A DNA stretch of 22,443 bases from a virus: positions 1-22,443 of the IMG/VR virus record IMGVR_UViG_3300020442_000784, one strand, 5' to 3'. The notes under the pieces are model-generated. The model was not told the DNA's origin and did no database searches. It saw only the letters and a list, made by a program, of their open reading frames with translations. This document shows, in pieces, positions 3,027 through 14,557 of this stretch (its first letter is position 1; every line of letters starts with the position of its first letter). Position numbers and translations under genes: made by a program.

Positions 3027-3791
3027 TCAGTATAGGGCATCTGCAAGGGGATTCTGTGCCTGCTGTGCCACCTCTTGAACTGACACACTCTTGTTTATAC
3101 GGTTCTGTGTGATTTCAATATACTTCTGATCAATGTCAAATCCAATCCATTGTCGCTTAAGTTCTTCTGCAACAATAGCAGTAGTACCAGATCCCATGAA
3201 AGGATCAAGGACAATATCATTTTCCTCAGTAGTAAGTTGAATACAGTTTCTGACAAGTTGTGGTGGAAATGGTGCTGGGTGTTGTTTCTGCCGCTCAGGA
3301 TTGATCACCCATACTTCACCTTTGTATGCAGGATCTATAGCATCACGAAATACTTTTGGTTTCTTTTTACAGAACCAGTAGATATGTTCTGTGCATGGTA
3401 CAAGAACATCATTGCGAATGTTAGGAGAGTTTCTTCTATCCCAGATGATCAGTTGATATAACTGAGCATCACTTTGACTGATAAAATCTGTTGGAAGATA
3501 ACAACGATTCTTATATCTACGGGGTTTATGATTAAAGAATATACTACCCTCTGGTTTGATGATACGATGACATTGATTCAAAAACTCTATCATCCATGCC
3601 TGATACTCTCCTTCAGGCATGTCATCACCATATGTGTTGTAATCAATCTGAAACTTACCCCAGATTTGATTACCTTGCTTCACTTTACCTAACAATCCCT
3701 TCTTGTTATATGGAGGAGATGTGATGATACAATCAATGGAGTTTTCCTCCAGATCCTTCATCCCCTCAATACAATCTTTATTGATAATCAT
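3027..3791 (-). CDS. DNA methyltransferase, beta-order (N4-cytosine or N6-adenine)
   Basis: A 254-residue SAM-dependent amino-methyltransferase. The catalytic motif IV (TSPPY, residues 24-28) comes first and the SAM-binding motif I (DPFMGSGTT, 196-204) near the end, the order of beta-class enzymes, with the target-recognition part probably in between. DxK-type C-terminal residues (GFDIDQKY, 218-224) fit motif II. SPPY is more common in N4-cytosine enzymes, but N6-adenine enzymes with it exist, so base specificity stays open. The gene overlaps the upstream gene by 14 bases, which ties their translation together and suggests a functional pair. It could protect phage DNA from host restriction, or be the modification half of a phage restriction-modification unit. 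Residues after about 235 look like a disordered tail. Confidence 0.93.
   Translation of the reverse strand: MIINKDCIEGMKDLEENSIDCIITSPPYNKKGLLGKVKQGNQIWGKFQIDYNTYGDDMPEGEYQAWMIEFLNQCHRIIKPEGSIFFNHKPRRYKNRCYLPTDFISQSDAQLYQLIIWDRRNSPNIRNDVLVPCTEHIYWFCKKKPKVFRDAIDPAYKGEVWVINPERQKQHPAPFPPQLVRNCIQLTTEENDIVLDPFMGSGTTAIVAEELKRQWIGFDIDQKYIEITQNRINKSVSVQEVAQQAQNPLADALY
3029..3034 (-). promoter_or_regulatory. Weak -10 candidate (TATACT)
   Basis: TATACT overlaps the methyltransferase stop codon, about 22 bases before the ATG at 3006, the same geometry as the -10 at 574-579. No -35 box is visible, so it may be chance. Confidence 0.25.
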
Positions 3792-4488
3792 TTACTTGAG
3801 GACGATAAATGTGGAACATGAGAGAGTGATAACCAGAGTTGAACTTTGCTCCAGATCCCTTCATCTGAAGGTGAAATAGTTTATTACCGTTAGCATCAAC
3901 GAAGTAAAGTGTAGTAGGATTCAGAACCCACTTTCCACCTTCAATAACATCAGCAATATCCTGAATATCGTACTTCCACTCTTCTTTCGTAATTTTATTA
4001 TACCATATCATTTTGTTGACTGGTTCACCAAGTTTAATCTCCTTGGTCTTTTTATTGCGATAGATTCCCTTACGAACGATAGCATCAAAGGTTTCCATCT
4101 TATGATCATTGAACCACTTAAGACCAAGTTGATTCAATCGATCGTTATCAACAACACGATGTTGTGGGTGAGCACCATTACTAACATCTTCATGGGGTGT
4201 TCCAAAGAACAATCCAAACCATTCACGAAGTTCACCAGTGATATTGAAATAAGTACACCAAACATCTGAAGATGTTAGATGACATTGAGTATGGTTTTTT
4301 GATACTGATTTCTTGCTATAGTAATCTTGAAGATCATCACAAACAATATCCCGTTTTGTATCACTAGCACCATCTGTATCGTGCTTATATCCTGTTGATT
4401 CAGTCAAAGTATCTGCTGAAGTATCTTCTTCAGTATGCCCATCATACTTTGCCTTCCGACCTGCTTCGATCTGTGCGAGAGTGCCCAT
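3778..4488 (-). CDS. Unknown protein paired with methyltransferase; candidate restriction endonuclease
   Basis: A 236-residue protein, first gene after the strong terminator/promoter junction at 4510-4542, with an AAGGA ribosome site before its ATG. The first 60 residues are acidic, Thr/Ser/Asp-rich and probably disordered. The C-terminal part holds a beta-strand with an acidic residue (LYFVDANG, Asp198), then LFHLQMKGSG with Gln208 and Lys210. An acidic residue followed about ten residues later by (E/D/Q)xK is the pattern of PD-(D/E)xK nucleases, here in the rarer QxK form. The 14-base overlap with a DNA methyltransferase is the usual arrangement of type II restriction pairs. I do not recognise the family by sequence, so nuclease activity is an inference from one motif and the neighbour. 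Confidence 0.45.
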   Translation of the reverse strand: MGTLAQIEAGRKAKYDGHTEEDTSADTLTESTGYKHDTDGASDTKRDIVCDDLQDYYSKKSVSKNHTQCHLTSSDVWCTYFNITGELREWFGLFFGTPHEDVSNGAHPQHRVVDNDRLNQLGLKWFNDHKMETFDAIVRKGIYRNKKTKEIKLGEPVNKMIWYNKITKEEWKYDIQDIADVIEGGKWVLNPTTLYFVDANGNKLFHLQMKGSGAKFNSGYHSLMFHIYRPQVNDYQ

Positions 4489-4509
4489 GGGATCCTTGAC
4501 GATGTTCTA

Positions 4510-4518
4510 ATCATAGCA
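4510..4518 (-). promoter_or_regulatory. Extended -10 promoter (TGCTATGAT)
   Basis: TGC plus TATGAT lies immediately downstream of the T-run of the terminator at 4520-4542. The predicted start near 4503 leaves a leader of about 15 bases before the ATG at 4488. There is no -35 box. It would drive the methyltransferase pair separately from the small-gene block upstream. Confidence 0.55.
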
Positions 4519-4519
4519 T

Positions 4520-4542
4520 AAAAAAAGGGGCATTGCTGCCCC
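4520..4542 (-). terminator. Rho-independent terminator with GCAA tetraloop
   Basis: GGGGCA, loop GCAA, TGCCCC, then seven T residues on the minus strand: a compact 6-bp stem capped by a GNRA tetraloop. It lies about 20 bases after the stop of the gene ending at 4562. This is the best intrinsic terminator in the window. Confidence 0.85.
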
Positions 4543-4561
4543 CCAACCAGTTATATTTCTG

Positions 4562-4852
4562 TCACATGAACGCTGCTTGTAACGGATTTAAATTTAGTTG
4601 CATTGCAGTATAATCTCTAGTATCATCGAAACTCACAACTTCTCCACACTTTTTGAAGTTGATGGGTGCGTGATACTCTCCCTTTTTAGTATTGTAGAAT
4701 CCCCATATTGTCTTGACAGGAATACCATCATTGAAAATAAATGAAGAGTGGTTGACAAGCCAAATAGCAAGATAATTACGCTTGAACTCAGTAACCTCAT
4801 AGGTAAAGTTTTCATTAGGAGGTTCGTGGGTAAATGACGAAGGGAGATTCAT
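4562..4852 (-). CDS. Conserved small phage protein, unknown
   Basis: A 96-residue beta-rich protein. The C-terminal half (GFYNTKKGEYHAPINFKKCG, then DYTAMQLNLNPL) resembles a small uncharacterised family that I associate with T4-like cyanophages. No catalytic residues stand out. Its ATG at 4852 directly follows the stop of the gene ending at 4853, and the gene is followed by the terminator at 4520-4542, making it the last gene of the small-gene block. The family link is from memory. Confidence 0.8.
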   Translation of the reverse strand: MNLPSSFTHEPPNENFTYEVTEFKRNYLAIWLVNHSSFIFNDGIPVKTIWGFYNTKKGEYHAPINFKKCGEVVSFDDTRDYTAMQLNLNPLQAAFM

Positions 4853-5068
4853 TTAGTTGTCGTGTAGTTTACACTCAGGTGCCCAGGGTTCTTCATCACA
4901 GAACATTTCAAAGTCTGTAGGATCGTGATGATCTTCTGGATGGTTTTCATGATACATCATAAGATGCTCAAGCTCTTCTGTCAAGTGTCTCCTTGCTTGA
5001 GGAGACATTGAAGGATCTTCTAACTTTGCAAGATTATCACTAATGTGATCCTCTATTGAACGGTACAT
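4853..5068 (-). CDS. Small His/Glu-rich protein with C-terminal CD..P.A.EC motif
   Basis: A 71-residue acidic, histidine-rich protein (HHDPTDFEMF region, HENHPEDHHD). Its last 19 residues (FEMFCDEEPWAPECKLHDN) align without gaps with the C-terminus of the gene at 5530-5763, sharing the two cysteines, a proline, an alanine and the Glu-Cys pair. The two cysteines nine residues apart among acidic and histidine residues could bind a metal or form a disulfide, but that is only a suggestion. It abuts the next gene directly. No function is known to me. Confidence 0.75.
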   Translation of the reverse strand: MYRSIEDHISDNLAKLEDPSMSPQARRHLTEELEHLMMYHENHPEDHHDPTDFEMFCDEEPWAPECKLHDN

Positions 5069-5096
5069 GTACCTATACCTGTGTTAGTATTTGTTA

Positions 5097-5537
5097 CTAT
5101 TTAACAATTCCACCACCAGAGTTCCATCCACCAGGACCAGTTTGGAAGTTTTCAGAACCACCAATAGACTCCCTAGTTTCGTCTACAGTATTCCAATTAC
5201 TGGTTGCCATTTCATACATCAACTGGTGCATATTGCAAGGTTCACCCTTATATTCATGGGTTTCTTGCGCTTCCTGTTGTTTAATGATAGTTTCTTGTTC
5301 CATATAATCTAACTGCTTTTCTGAGCGAAGAGGAGCAGGACCGAACCAAGAATCATCTTCTAAGTAGACAGGAGCAGGAATACCGATATAAGGAGGATTG
5401 TCCATTTCGCGGCAGTCCACAATTTCTTCATCGATTGCACATTCTACCTTGTATGTGTTTGCTTTCTTTTGAAGAAGTGTGGTTTGTGTTTCCACTTCTT
5501 TTTTCTTCTTAAAAAGATTGGAGAATTTTTTAATCAT
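5097..5537 (-). CDS. Hypothetical protein with basic N-terminus and Gly-rich tail
   Basis: A 146-residue protein starting MIKKFSNLFKKKKEVE, with a middle containing VECAIDEEIVDCREMDNPPY (residues about 31-50) and a C-terminal GPGGWNSGGGIVK tail. The ATG at 5537 overlaps the end of the upstream gene (GATGATTAA). A longer reading starting at 5687 would run 150 bases into that gene and is not favoured. A Gln/Glu-rich helical segment lies near residues 76-95. The lysine-rich amphipathic start could bind nucleic acid or membrane. I do not recognise a family. Confidence 0.65.
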   Translation of the reverse strand: MIKKFSNLFKKKKEVETQTTLLQKKANTYKVECAIDEEIVDCREMDNPPYIGIPAPVYLEDDSWFGPAPLRSEKQLDYMEQETIIKQQEAQETHEYKGEPCNMHQLMYEMATSNWNTVDETRESIGGSENFQTGPGGWNSGGGIVK

Positions 5538-5763
5538 CGTAGACTCTACATTCAAGGGCATCTGGGTGATTGTCGCAGTATTTTTCCAGAACTTTATCTG
5601 AATGGCGTTGTTTCCAACCATCATCTTGTTCTCCCTCATGCTTGTCCATAAATCCATGCATTTTGAGGTCTTCTTCGGTATATTCAAGCATACCGTGATT
5701 TACATGCTCTTTGCCATCTTCTGGATCAATATAAACATGATCCAAATCCTGTTTATCAGTCAT
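5530..5763 (-). CDS. Small acidic protein with C-terminal CD..P.A.EC motif
   Basis: A 77-residue acidic protein (DPEDGKEHVNHGMLEYTEED at residues 13-32). It ends in LEKYCDNHPDALECRVYDD, matching the tail of the protein at 4853-5068 at eight of 19 positions. I recall similar NP-A-EC-RVYDD tails ending several small cyanophage proteins, which suggests a shared C-terminal module. Its stop overlaps the start of the next gene by 8 bases. Function unknown. Confidence 0.78.
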   Translation of the reverse strand: MTDKQDLDHVYIDPEDGKEHVNHGMLEYTEEDLKMHGFMDKHEGEQDDGWKQRHSDKVLEKYCDNHPDALECRVYDD

Positions 5764-5780
5764 ATGTTCTTAGCTTTTGA

Positions 5781-5984
5781 TTATTTAACCAAGTTTTCTT
5801 TTCGGATAAACATTCCCTCCATATCATAGAATAGTTTGAAGTTACTTGTAGTGACATAATGCCCTACAATAGCATTGCCCTCACTATTCCATCCGTATGC
5901 ACGAACCTTTTCGCAAGATCCATCGATATTGAAGCACTTATCTGTGTGTAGATAGGAGTGGTATCGTTCATCCAGGTTAATCAT
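5781..5984 (-). CDS. Small beta-rich protein, unknown
   Basis: A 67-residue protein beginning MINLDERYHSYLHTDKCFN. The start at 5984 is chosen because a longer reading begins with TTG inside the -10 element at 6008-6016, upstream of where RNA would start. Alternating hydrophobic and polar residues (AIVGHYVTTSNFKLFYDMEG) suggest a small beta barrel or sheet. No motif is recognised. Confidence 0.65.
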   Translation of the reverse strand: MINLDERYHSYLHTDKCFNIDGSCEKVRAYGWNSEGNAIVGHYVTTSNFKLFYDMEGMFIRKENLVK

Positions 5985-6007
5985 AGTGGCGATTTGAAGA
6001 TTCTGCA

Positions 6008-6016
6008 ACTATAGCA
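6008..6016 (-). promoter_or_regulatory. Extended -10 promoter (TGCTATAGT)
   Basis: TGC plus TATAGT, five of six -10 matches, with expected transcription start near 6001 and about a 17-base leader before the ATG at 5984. No -35 box. A short inverted repeat (GCTTTT/AAAAGC) lies between it and the upstream stop codon. Confidence 0.5.
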
Positions 6017-6044
6017 CGCTTTTGTTAGGAAAAGCCTACAAACA

Positions 6045-6338
6045 TCACTTCTTAACATAAGGATTTTCTATAGGTCCACCCATGTCAACCTTACCAGAGT
6101 CACCAGTGGGCAATTCAGTATAATCTACCCAATTCTTTCGGTTTTCAAGACCATTCATCAAATCAAGTAGATTGCCTGCACCCTTCGCACATGCTCGATA
6201 ATATAACATCTTACGACGCGCAACAGTACGAATTACACTGTAAATCTCATCTGGAGTACAATCTGATTCAAGTGCATCTTCTACAGCATCTTCTAATTGA
6301 CGAAGTGCGTAACTACTCTCTTCTGTCATTAAGTTCAT
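6045..6338 (-). CDS. Conserved small helical protein, unknown
   Basis: A 97-residue protein whose first half is a helical domain (SSYALRQLEDAVEDALESDC, then PDEIYSVIRTVARR), a pattern I associate with small uncharacterised cyanophage proteins. The second half is longer than in the short forms I recall and ends with Pro/Lys. ATG codons at 6338 and 6329 are both possible; either overlaps the upstream gene. No catalytic motif. Confidence 0.75.
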   Translation of the reverse strand: MNLMTEESSYALRQLEDAVEDALESDCTPDEIYSVIRTVARRKMLYYRACAKGAGNLLDLMNGLENRKNWVDYTELPTGDSGKVDMGGPIENPYVKK

Positions 6339-9157: not shown

Positions 9158-9682
9158 TTAACGAAGTAAATCAATAGCTTTGGGTAAAATTTCATACTCT
9201 GCAAGTTGTATTCTTCTTGTAAGAGTCTTTACATCATCATCTTCAAGAATAGGAACTGCTTTCTGTATAATGATAGGTCCACTATCAAGTTCTTCACTTA
9301 CAAAGTGAACCGTGCAACCAGTTTCACTATCATTTGCTTCCATTGCTTGTTCAATAGCATGGAGACCTTTATATTTTGGCAACAATGATGGATGAACATT
9401 GATAATCCTATCAGGAAAGGCATTTATCAATTTTGGTGATACAATTCTCATCCATCCTGCAAGAACTACAAGTTCAACACCCCAAGCTTGAAGTAAACTG
9501 ATAATCTCAAACTCATTCTTAGATTTTAAGTGACAGTTTGGGATACCAAGTTTATCTGCTCTCTTATGAGCACCACACTTTGATTTGTTGTAGATCATAA
9601 CTACAACTTCATCGCGTTTACAGGTTCTTACAATGTTCTCAAAGTTAGAACCATTTCCAGAACAAAGTACACCTATCCTCAT
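9158..9682 (-). CDS. purN: Phosphoribosylglycinamide formyltransferase
   Basis: A 174-residue PurN enzyme, which transfers a formyl group from 10-formyl-tetrahydrofolate to GAR in purine synthesis. Visible landmarks: CSGNGSNF (7-14) for the phosphate site, LAGWMRI (74-80), the catalytic Asn95 and His97 in NVHPSLLP, and the catalytic Asp133 in ELDSGP. Bacterial PurN is about 200 residues, so this version is trimmed, mainly at the C-terminus, but keeps every catalytic residue. purN is a known auxiliary metabolic gene of cyanophages, thought to boost purine supply for phage DNA. It overlaps the upstream gene by ATGA. Confidence 0.95.
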   Translation of the reverse strand: MRIGVLCSGNGSNFENIVRTCKRDEVVVMIYNKSKCGAHKRADKLGIPNCHLKSKNEFEIISLLQAWGVELVVLAGWMRIVSPKLINAFPDRIINVHPSLLPKYKGLHAIEQAMEANDSETGCTVHFVSEELDSGPIIIQKAVPILEDDDVKTLTRRIQLAEYEILPKAIDLLR

Positions 9683-12296: not shown

Positions 12297-13355
12297 TCAG
12301 TTCTGGAGTGCTACCAGATCACCACGATCAAGGTCTACCAGATGTGGCAATCGATAACCGTAAGACAAGTAAGAACGAATCCGTGTAGCTTCATTCTTAC
12401 CTAGAATCTTACCAAAGTTTTCAATGTAATCTTCAATCTCATCCATACGCTCACGAATCAGATGCAGAACACCAATCTCATCGTCTACATTGTTTGTATT
12501 CACATAGAAGTGAATAGTTGTAGAGATGCCGTTTGCAGCATCTTCAAAGAACTGTGGGAAAAAGTCACGATAAACATGAACTGGACCCATAGCACTTACG
12601 AGACGATCAACACTAGAACCACGAACATCAGCAGCAGTGCTTTGAATCTTGATTCCTTTCTTGGAGAAGAAACGAATACCCTCACCACGGGTAAAGTTTG
12701 CAAGGAAGGTTTTCTTCTCAGTTGCGTTGTAGATTGCCTTTACAAGGCGTTCTTGAGTATCGGGAGTCTCAAAATCTGCGTACTCTTGTACCCAGTTACG
12801 AACTTCAGTCTCAGTTACGCGAGCATCTTCACGCAAAGAGTTCTGTTCGATCACCCACAAAATACCCCGTGCTTTGTAGTCATCGAAGGCAGATGATGTG
12901 CCTTCAGGACGAGGTTGATACTTCAACCCAATCTCATTGATGACATCGTTCTTAGAGAATCCCAGTTTGGGGACTACTTTCAGAACGGGAACATAAGGAA
13001 CTTGATGCTCATCGAACCAACGGAAACGGTGGTTTCCATTCACAGGTTCATCATCATCTGCAAAGACAAAAGGAGGAAGTTTGTTGATATTCCATCCAGG
13101 AGTCAGGTTCTTGTCAACGATGTCATATACATCTTTGTCATTACCCCGAACACGACCCACATTTGCCTGTCCAAGTTTGCGAACAGTATCAACAGCGATA
13201 ACTGTGCATGATACTACTTCACAAGTTTTATATTCAAGAGTCTTGATAATCTCTTTATGATACATCTCAGCGAGTTCATAAAGGATGCCAGACTCTCTAA
13301 AGTCTTCCCAATCGATAAATCCAGTGGGAATCGTAATTTCATTAAAGATAGTCAT
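12297..13355 (-). CDS. ParB-like nuclease-domain protein
   Basis: A 352-residue protein. Its core, PVNGNHRFRWFDEHQVPYVP (residues 105-124), carries the (D/N)G.HR signature of the ParB/sulfiredoxin fold, found in plasmid partition proteins, phage ParB-like nucleases and DNA-modification systems. The preceding segment (INKLPPFVFADDDE) fits the strand leading into it. The remaining two thirds are helical with no recognised motif and may bind DNA. The start at 13355 is used because the longer reading begins inside the -10 of the promoter at 13414-13442. It follows the methyltransferase genes directly and is followed by a terminator, so it forms its own transcription unit. Confidence 0.75.
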   Translation of the reverse strand: MTIFNEITIPTGFIDWEDFRESGILYELAEMYHKEIIKTLEYKTCEVVSCTVIAVDTVRKLGQANVGRVRGNDKDVYDIVDKNLTPGWNINKLPPFVFADDDEPVNGNHRFRWFDEHQVPYVPVLKVVPKLGFSKNDVINEIGLKYQPRPEGTSSAFDDYKARGILWVIEQNSLREDARVTETEVRNWVQEYADFETPDTQERLVKAIYNATEKKTFLANFTRGEGIRFFSKKGIKIQSTAADVRGSSVDRLVSAMGPVHVYRDFFPQFFEDAANGISTTIHFYVNTNNVDDEIGVLHLIRERMDEIEDYIENFGKILGKNEATRIRSYLSYGYRLPHLVDLDRGDLVALQN

Positions 13356-13413
13356 TGTCTGCCTTTGGCATTGTGTAATGCGGTTGTTTGGCGATTCGCC
13401 CAACCACACATAC

Positions 13414-13442
13414 AATATACACTGATTTTTCTATCCTGTCAA
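13414..13442 (-). promoter_or_regulatory. Consensus sigma-70 promoter (TTGACA-17-TATATT)
   Basis: A perfect TTGACA (13437-13442), a 17-base spacer and TATATT (13414-13419). It begins just after the stop codon of the methylase gene. The start site near 13407 gives about a 52-base leader to the ATG at 13355, containing two small stem-loops, one (TGCC/GGCA) covering the likely ribosome site. Confidence 0.88.
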
Positions 13443-13454
13443 CCCCCTGTGCCA

Positions 13455-13937
13455 CTAGAAGAACTGTTCTAAGGATGCCTCACTAGGATCTGTATTGGGT
13501 TCTGGGGGTGTATAATCGTCGGGTCTTCTGATCTTACCTAGACCCTGCTCTAAACCCACTTCTTCATCGAAAGAGTAATCATACTCTAAAGCATCAGCAC
13601 AAACATAGTGTGGATGATCTACAGGAACTCCAAGATTTGCACACAGTTCCTTATGATTATCTTCCATCATTTCTACAGCATATAACATATTGTTTAGAAT
13701 ATGATCTTCACTATGAAACTGTAGTAAACGATTCTTCATTCCAACTAGAAAGTTACCACAACCAGCAGAGTTATCAATAAATGTACTCTCTGGATCTTTT
13801 AGTAATTCAATATCAATCTCATCAATCATCTGCTCAACAAGTTCCATCGGAGTGAAAACTTCTTGAGTTACTTTGATTCTTTCATCGGATCTTTCAATCG
13901 TAGATCCAACATCTTTATTATGCTTATTCTTTGCCAT
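13455..13937 (-). CDS. N6-adenine DNA methyltransferase-like, SAM-binding half
   Basis: A 160-residue protein carrying only the SAM-binding part of an amino-methyltransferase: VFTP near 27-30 (motif X), FIDNSAGCGNF at 53-63 (motif I), YAVEM at 86-90 (motif II) and CADALEYD at 113-120 (motif III). The catalytic (N/D/S)PPY motif is absent here but present in the gene directly upstream (13924-14508), so the two probably assemble into one enzyme that methylates adenine in DNA. The acidic C-terminus (Asp/Glu/Pro-rich) looks disordered. The ATG at 13937 follows a GAAAGAG site and overlaps the upstream gene by 14 bases; a TTG at 13949 is less likely. Confidence 0.85.
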   Translation of the reverse strand: MAKNKHNKDVGSTIERSDERIKVTQEVFTPMELVEQMIDEIDIELLKDPESTFIDNSAGCGNFLVGMKNRLLQFHSEDHILNNMLYAVEMMEDNHKELCANLGVPVDHPHYVCADALEYDYSFDEEVGLEQGLGKIRRPDDYTPPEPNTDPSEASLEQFF

Positions 13938-14508
13938 CTCTTTCTTCAAGACATCTAATATAAGTTGAAATCAAATCGTTCTTGCCAAAGTGATACCTTC
14001 CATTACACTGTGTAGCAGTTGCACGAAACGAATCAGCAAATTCTAGCATATTATTTACAACTTCTGGACATCTAGTTTTCAAAAAATGATGTCCTTTCGC
14101 ATAGTGGGTAAAGTTCTCGATCTTGACTCTACCACTGGGTCCACAGCCATATTCACCAACAAAAACATCAGCATCAAACCTTCTCTCATAAGGTAAGAAC
14201 TCAAAGTCTGGATGTTCCTTATGCATAGGTATCTCTCCAACACCTACTTGGAATCTCGATGTGTTTTTAACTTCCCAGTATTGTTTTACAGCACTAATAC
14301 CACCAGGGAAGGTTGAAGGATCTAGATCTTCATCTACACTACAATGCAAATGACCTACAATCTTATTCAAGGAAGATGGCTTCCTTACAGATGTAGGCAA
14401 TACAAATCTAATATCATCAGTAACTTCTGATGTTTTATTTAAAAATTTAATAGCAAGATTACCTCCAACACCATATGGAGGATTCCCAATAGCTAAGCTA
14501 AATCTCAT
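13924..14508 (-). CDS. N6-adenine DNA methyltransferase-like, catalytic half
   Basis: A 194-residue protein starting almost directly at the catalytic motif IV: IGNPPYG at residues 7-13, the form typical of N6-adenine methylases. It continues with IKFLNKTS and IRFVLPTSVRK (about 20-43), which fit motifs V and VI. The rest (about 60-190) would contain the target-recognition domain. No SAM-binding motif is present; that part is encoded next (13455-13937). Together they reproduce beta-type order IV...X-I-II-III across two chains. It is the first gene behind a consensus sigma-70 promoter, so it is expected early. A GAAGG site abuts the ATG with a very short leader. Confidence 0.85.
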   Translation of the reverse strand: MRFSLAIGNPPYGVGGNLAIKFLNKTSEVTDDIRFVLPTSVRKPSSLNKIVGHLHCSVDEDLDPSTFPGGISAVKQYWEVKNTSRFQVGVGEIPMHKEHPDFEFLPYERRFDADVFVGEYGCGPSGRVKIENFTHYAKGHHFLKTRCPEVVNNMLEFADSFRATATQCNGRYHFGKNDLISTYIRCLEERDGKE

Positions 14509-14528: not shown

Positions 14529-14557
14529 ATTCTACAGATAATCTAAGACTTTGTCAA
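14529..14557 (-). promoter_or_regulatory. Consensus sigma-70 promoter (TTGACA-17-TAGAAT)
   Basis: A perfect TTGACA (14552-14557), a 17-base spacer and TAGAAT (14529-14534), located just past the stop of the glycine-rich tail gene. The start near 14522 leaves only about 14 bases of leader before the ATG at 14508. It separates the methylase block from the fibre genes. Confidence 0.82.

Follow-up and report, generated by a model that had tools for sequence, protein, structure and literature searches.

DNA methyltransferases composed of two separately encoded chains are known among the C5-cytosine enzymes, viz., M.AquI and M.EcoHK31I, in which the larger subunit harbors motifs I-VIII (PMC3404938; a constant subunit with exchangeable partners is not mentioned for them in that source). 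Naturally permuted cytosine methyltransferases have also been described, together with a model in which the evolution of methyltransferases proceeds through permutation by duplication (PMC5944983). The gamma-class adenine methyltransferases CamA, M.BseCI, RM.BsaXI, HsdM and M.TaqI carry every motif in one chain, in the order X-I-II-III-IV. Among phages, the rV5 type (Escherichia phage V5 gp096 and Xanthomonas phage XbC2_125) is likewise a single chain, in which motifs X and I are followed by NPPF and the target part, and Aeromonas phages Aeh1 (Aeh1p090), PX29, Ah1 and phiAS5 possess a chain made up of NPPY, a target part, FTP and motifs I-III, which is annotated as hypothetical or as 'similar to type III restriction system endonuclease'. 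In a literature search that excluded REBASE and most subscription journals, we found no published account of the split phage system described below.

Here we describe a pair of overlapping genes, A (13924-14508, minus strand, 194 aa) and B (13455-13937, minus strand, 160 aa from its ATG), which appear to encode complementary halves of an adenine methyltransferase. The window analysed is a 22,443-base marine virus fragment (IMG/VR record IMGVR_UViG_3300020442_000784). Its DNA is similar to that of Prochlorococcus phages P-SSM2 and P-SSM5 and this, along with the gene neighbours of the pair, viz., fibre-like genes upstream and a helicase and a dCMP deaminase downstream, points to a T4-like cyanophage, i.e., a P-SSM2-like cyanomyovirus fragment. 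The window also encodes a second DNA methyltransferase, which is single-chain and CcrM-like (3027-3791, minus strand; phrog_67), and a phosphoribosylglycinamide formyltransferase, a cyanophage auxiliary metabolic gene (9158-9682, minus strand; phrog_9240). Between B and the helicase lies a gene for a 372-aa hypothetical protein (12297-13415, minus strand) with a weak PHROG match, a 'VNGNHR' stretch and a strong promoter-like site of its own at 13442-13414 (11/12 matches).

Like M.AquI and M.EcoHK31I, the pair would give one DNA methyltransferase from two chains, but the cytosine enzymes are cut at a different place. Motifs X and I of CamA, M.BseCI, RM.BsaXI, HsdM and M.TaqI can be aligned with B, and the fold of A resembles the motif IV part of these enzymes; unlike in them, however, the motifs are distributed over two genes, with A (motif IV onward) preceding B (motifs X to III) and each chain lacking essential motifs found in the other. 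The NPPF-onward region of the rV5 type is homologous to nearly all of A (~28% identity over ~90% of A), but the rV5 type has neither a separate B nor the clamp-like tail in which B ends. The Aeromonas phage proteins are natural A-B fusions whose B half is homologous to the B of the window, and the phiAS5 copy ends in TNTLEAFF; they differ in being fused, in having a different target part and, in the case of Aeh1, PX29 and Ah1, in the absence of the tail. The AF2 model of the phiAS5 fusion is poor (pTM 0.45) and was not used for placing the halves. The halves are also separate genes in bacterial operons of the form B - helicase - A (Janibacter, Microbacterium, Gordonia and an actinomycetote MAG; loci L182-L185), but there B comes first and is ~34% identical, a ResIII helicase of ~1,100 aa lies in between, and a clamp-like tail is missing. 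The A-like genes of these operons encode NPPY proteins, and that of L182 covers Pfam Eco57I (171 positions) from 71 to 171 only. In Aurantimicrobium (L187), a B-like gene (3878-4603, plus strand) is directly followed by a complete single-chain Eco57I-type methyltransferase (4591-6249, plus strand).

Sequence and structure of the two genes

Gene A encodes the putative catalytic and target-recognition half, from motif IV onward. The protein starts with MRFSLAIGNPPYG, which places just eight residues ahead of its NPPY (residues 9-12; 14473-14484, minus strand), so that A is devoid of motifs X and I, and no SAM motif was found in the A translation. Residues 6-85 of A match positions 80-164 of 269 of the PADLOC MTase_II type II profile (E=7.5e-8), while a Pfam scan returned no relevant match and a sequence profile of A gave no meaningful match against PDB sequences. 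AF2 models A with confidence (pLDDT 90.3, pTM 0.78), placing NPPY right behind the first strand, and the strands of the model can be read as strands 4, 5, 6 and 7 of the methyltransferase fold. Fold matches of this model in the PDB are mostly adenine methyltransferases (M.TaqI, EcoKI HsdM, KsgA, Erm and CamA), at weak E-values of 0.0044 (best) upward. A thus displays the (D/N/S)PP(Y/F/W) motif IV that is required of a gamma-type N6-adenine DNA methyltransferase, as NPPY in a matching fold; NPPY and a KsgA-like fold are by themselves no proof of DNA as the substrate.

Gene B encodes the putative SAM-binding half. Its translation has motif X as FTP (residues 28-30 within VFTP at 27-30; 13848-13856), in which TP is invariant in the B alignment, followed by motif I, FIDNSAGCGNF (residues 53-63; 13749-13781), the motif II region YAVEMMEDN (residues 86-94; 13656-13682) and the motif III region CADAL (residues 113-117; 13587-13601), all on the minus strand, and contains no (D/N/S)PP(Y/F/W). 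Motif X followed by the SAM site of motif I is the succession seen in gamma-type N6-adenine DNA methyltransferases, and motif I is retained across B sites. Residues 16-102 of B match positions 71-158 of 607 of a complete type II methyltransferase profile (E=8.7e-5), and a profile built from 30 B sequences aligns with CamA (E=3.7e-4), BsaXI, M.BseCI and HsdM, the aligned part being limited to motifs X and I. A linker (approximately residues 129-154; 13476-13553, minus strand), present in the clade of the window and a few others and missing from most relatives, connects these motifs to the C-terminal SLEQFF (13458-13475, minus strand), which is similar to the clamp-binding tail of cyanophage DNA polymerase.

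By sequence comparison with complete type II adenine methyltransferases, A corresponds to the second half only and B to the first half only. A sequence-only reading of this DNA had assigned NPPY at residues 9-12 and no SAM motif to the first gene (14508-13924, minus strand), and motifs X, I, II and III, no PPY and a 14-base overlap to the second (13937-13455), and the translations bear out both descriptions.

Conservation of the split arrangement

The stop of A and the start of B overlap by 14 nt (13924-13937, minus strand), with B in the +1 frame of A. This overlap is conserved and makes translational coupling of the two genes likely. Scans of public viral contigs yielded 89 non-identical A/B pairs (IMG/VR counts are given after removal of identical stretches, with near-duplicates still included), in every one of which B follows A on the same strand. 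With two exceptions, viz., S-CAM7 (4-nt overlap) and locus L040 (genes not touching), B is read in the +1 frame of A; 50 pairs overlap by 14 nt and 19 by 20 nt. The pair is also present in P-SSM2 (PSSM2_036/037, annotated 'hypothetical'), S-SKS1 and S-CAM7. The recurrence of the split in 89 non-identical pairs rules out a sequencing error or frameshift as its cause, a possibility that the sequence-only reading had raised against itself. Nor is the split the unusual case for which it had been taken, since members of this B family are split as a rule and the bacterial operons also have separate halves.

Both genes are under purifying selection, with a median dN/dS of 0.09 for A and 0.11 for B when relatives are compared with the window. 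A sigma-70-like promoter, TTGACA-N17-TAGAAT (14529-14557, minus strand), precedes A, with 11/12 positions agreeing in what is a consensus match only; similar promoter-like sites are present ahead of A in many relatives, though not in all.

Relationship to gamma-type methyltransferases

The pair had initially been described as having the permuted, beta order of motifs. This description holds for the order of genes and motifs: the beta-class succession (IV-VIII, target part, X, I-III) is seen as gene order, and within a single chain only in the relatives from Aeromonas phages. It does not appear to hold for descent. The alignment of B runs over motifs X and I of CamA, M.BseCI and HsdM, and the full-length proteins closest to A (rV5 gp096 and XbC2_125) are canonical X-I-NPPF single chains; both points argue for halves of the gamma type. 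The named matches of B and its relatives are CamA, BseCI, BsaXI, HsdM and M.Alw26I-type enzymes. The most economical reading is that the halves are gamma-type by homology and that 'beta' denotes an order, and a descent from the beta class is judged unlikely from the homology of both halves. The position of the cut changes with this assignment, as it was earlier placed between the target-recognition part and motif X but, seen as gamma-type, falls between motifs III and IV.

The C-terminal tail of B

In T4, gp43, gp55 and gp33 bind gp45 via interchangeable hydrophobic and acidic C-termini, with a linker of variable length in gp55 (PMC2988020), and a motif of this kind is also present in ligase (PMC7892883). 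B resembles gp43 in having a hydrophobic and acidic C-terminus on a variable linker, the length of which changes among B proteins whereas the tail is retained. The majority of cyanophage B proteins terminate in (L/I/V)(D/E)xFF or a near variant of it. The B of the window ends in DPSEASLEQFF, the tail being retained despite the ~27-residue linker inserted before it, and the corresponding ends of DNA polymerases are NLELFFS (Bellamy), NLDSFFS (P-SSM2), TLESFFG (S-CAM7), TLEDFFS (MA01) and SLESFFT (ACG-2014f). Over all loci, the pattern is found in 123 of 143 distinct B C-termini versus 14 of 959 other long ORFs, with eight of those 14 being B-like. In the S-CAM7 proteome, 5 of 266 proteins match, viz., the polymerase, the two copies of B, a small hypothetical protein and a fifth, weaker match, while shuffled sequences gave a mean of 1.2 matches and at most 5. 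A 127-aa hypothetical protein of S-CAM7 (NC_031927.1; locus L200, 48576-48959) ends in SNLDTFFSK and is a candidate further clamp client. Outside cyanophages, a short hydrophobic end, KENKC(E/D)ALF, is found on the B of Lak phages and a Clostridium MAG (L009, L016 and L186).

This likeness suggests that B may tie the methyltransferase to the sliding clamp gp45. The case for such a tether is weakened by the B of P-SSM2 itself, which ends in GVLKF without the tail motif, so that the tail is not universal, and by the absence of a clamp-like tail from gp55 and gp33 of S-CAM7. Alternatively, the tail could be part of the folded core or serve in binding A, with no role as a clamp ligand. It lies directly behind a conserved YDYSFG stretch in most relatives, and the few B proteins without a tail, like the tailless gp55 and gp33, would fit such a role. 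However, the clade of the window keeps the tail though the linker parts it from the core, and the tail equals that of the polymerase and is rare elsewhere in the proteome. We hence regard this alternative as rather unlikely, though it deserves to be taken seriously.

A near-constant B and exchangeable A proteins

An added scan starting from a distant B brought the total to 192 distinct B sites, and scans with two distant alignments turned up no stretch of sufficient conservation. Among the 182 that are viral and non-fused, an NPPY-type gene lies immediately upstream in 125 and upstream with one gene in between in 29; 22 of the remaining sites are cut by the contig end, two have A downstream only, and at four none was seen, although two of these four carry a helicase-fused A with NSPY or NSPF. 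In ACG-2014f US44 (L017), B is without an adjacent A and the record contains no strong A match elsewhere. In Bellamy-type loci (L003, 4385-4948, minus strand, and many IMG/VR loci), a ~190-aa hypothetical protein (MKLQHTFG...) without a Pfam match is encoded between A and B.

The A proteins, compared from motif IV onward, fall into five groups by single linkage, while the B proteins of the two largest A groups have a median identity of 63% and are up to 89% identical. For example, B of locus L252 is 87-89% identical to those of L258 and L271 beside an unrelated A. Judged by sequence, B hardly varies as a subunit, while the A families with which it is paired are unrelated to each other. S-CAM7 has two A-B pairs, one of them with a helicase gene in front. 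Neither this exchange of A partners nor the clamp-like tail had figured in the earlier reading.

The stretch before NPPY also varies among the A proteins, being absent in the window and ~60-100, ~140 or ~270 residues long, or an 800-900-residue helicase, in others. In A proteins that do have a half ahead of NPPY, motif I of that half appears degenerate (e.g., GDPxGxHS and NALSGS), and for three of them a relationship between this half and B could be detected (E=4e-4 to 2.5e-3). A proteins with a degenerate SAM half and those without one resemble stages of permutation by duplication. Such a permutation would leave related upstream halves; alternatively, B could have come from elsewhere. In S-CAM7 (L005, 4953-5051, minus strand), the open frame of A extends beyond the annotated start, and this upstream part (GILPILLRQEFPDAEICCLEYNN) still shows a likeness to part of a SAM half, of which it may be a relic. 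Variants of NPPY in A proteins next to B include NYPY (L002, L267, L274, L262, L254 and L273), NFPY (L211 and L229) and NSPY/NSPF (L241 and L236). Pfam did not confirm a GIY-YIG domain that seemed to be present at the N-terminal end of S-SKS1-type A proteins.

Proposed mechanism and alternatives

Based on the complementarity of the two halves and the fusion of A to B in Aeromonas phages, which also lend inferential support to the earlier claim of a two-subunit adenine methyltransferase, we consider it likely that A and B are the subunits of one gamma-type DNA (adenine-N6) methyltransferase, with the tail of B on gp45. That they assemble into one enzyme, act on adenine in DNA, bind the clamp and serve to protect phage DNA are inferences. 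Under this proposal, a gamma-type enzyme would have been divided after motif III and before motif IV, and the gene encoding its second half would come first. B would contribute motif X and the SAM site (strands 3-2-1), A would contribute the catalytic NPPY (strands 4-5-7-6) and the target-recognition region, and SLEQFF on the linker of B would bind phage gp45 in the manner of the polymerase tail. Methylation would then follow the replication fork and, with a common B and an exchangeable A, new specificities would arise by swapping A alone. The purpose may be protection from host restriction or, perhaps, the marking of replicated DNA. Among the observations that speak against this proposal are that A of several relatives retains its own degenerate SAM half, which makes the docking of B harder to explain, and that B of ACG-2014f US44 has no A nearby.

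A wider hypothesis, which we put forward tentatively and think somewhat less probable than not, is that of plug-in, clamp-tethered methylation. A near-constant SAM subunit on gp45 would be served by a pool of exchangeable A proteins (bare, with a dead SAM half, or helicase-fused) that is traded among phages, and the loci would represent the stages of permutation by duplication, viz., B beside an A whose SAM half is dying, B beside an A that has none, and A and B fused.

B could instead be a separate SAM-binding or clamp-tethering accessory, with A obtaining its cofactor site in some other way or B serving several enzymes, such as the methyltransferase at 3027-3791. The A proteins that keep a degenerate SAM half beside a normal B, and the one record with B but no A, would suit such an accessory. 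Yet the A of the window has no SAM half at all, B nearly always adjoins an A gene, and the two form one chain in Aeromonas phages, which makes this explanation improbable. More doubtful still is that the pair methylates another substrate, i.e., RNA or protein glutamine. NPPY and a KsgA-like core are also found in enzymes acting on these, and several top fold matches of A are the KsgA/Dim1 and Erm rRNA enzymes, but both halves match type II and type I DNA methyltransferase profiles, CamA and M.BseCI, and helicase- or restriction-type partners are found in relatives. That the pair is a decaying, inactive remnant of a canonical methyltransferase, as decayed motif I in the N-terminal halves of many A relatives and NYPY, NFPY or NSPY in place of NPPY in some A might suggest, is very improbable given that NPPY and motif I are both intact in the window, that dN/dS is ~0.1 for both genes and that motif I of B is conserved across sites.

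Biological implications

If the two-subunit enzyme is true, a catalytic fold is split mid-sheet across two phage proteins, one of which (the cofactor half) is shared while the other (the specificity half) is exchangeable. The loci would then offer natural intermediates for the permutation-by-duplication model of methyltransferase evolution (PMC5944983). The tail of B predicts that methylation is delivered at the fork via the sliding clamp, and the proposal provides a testable activity for gene pairs annotated as 'hypothetical' in P-SSM2, S-SKS1, S-CAM7 and Bellamy.
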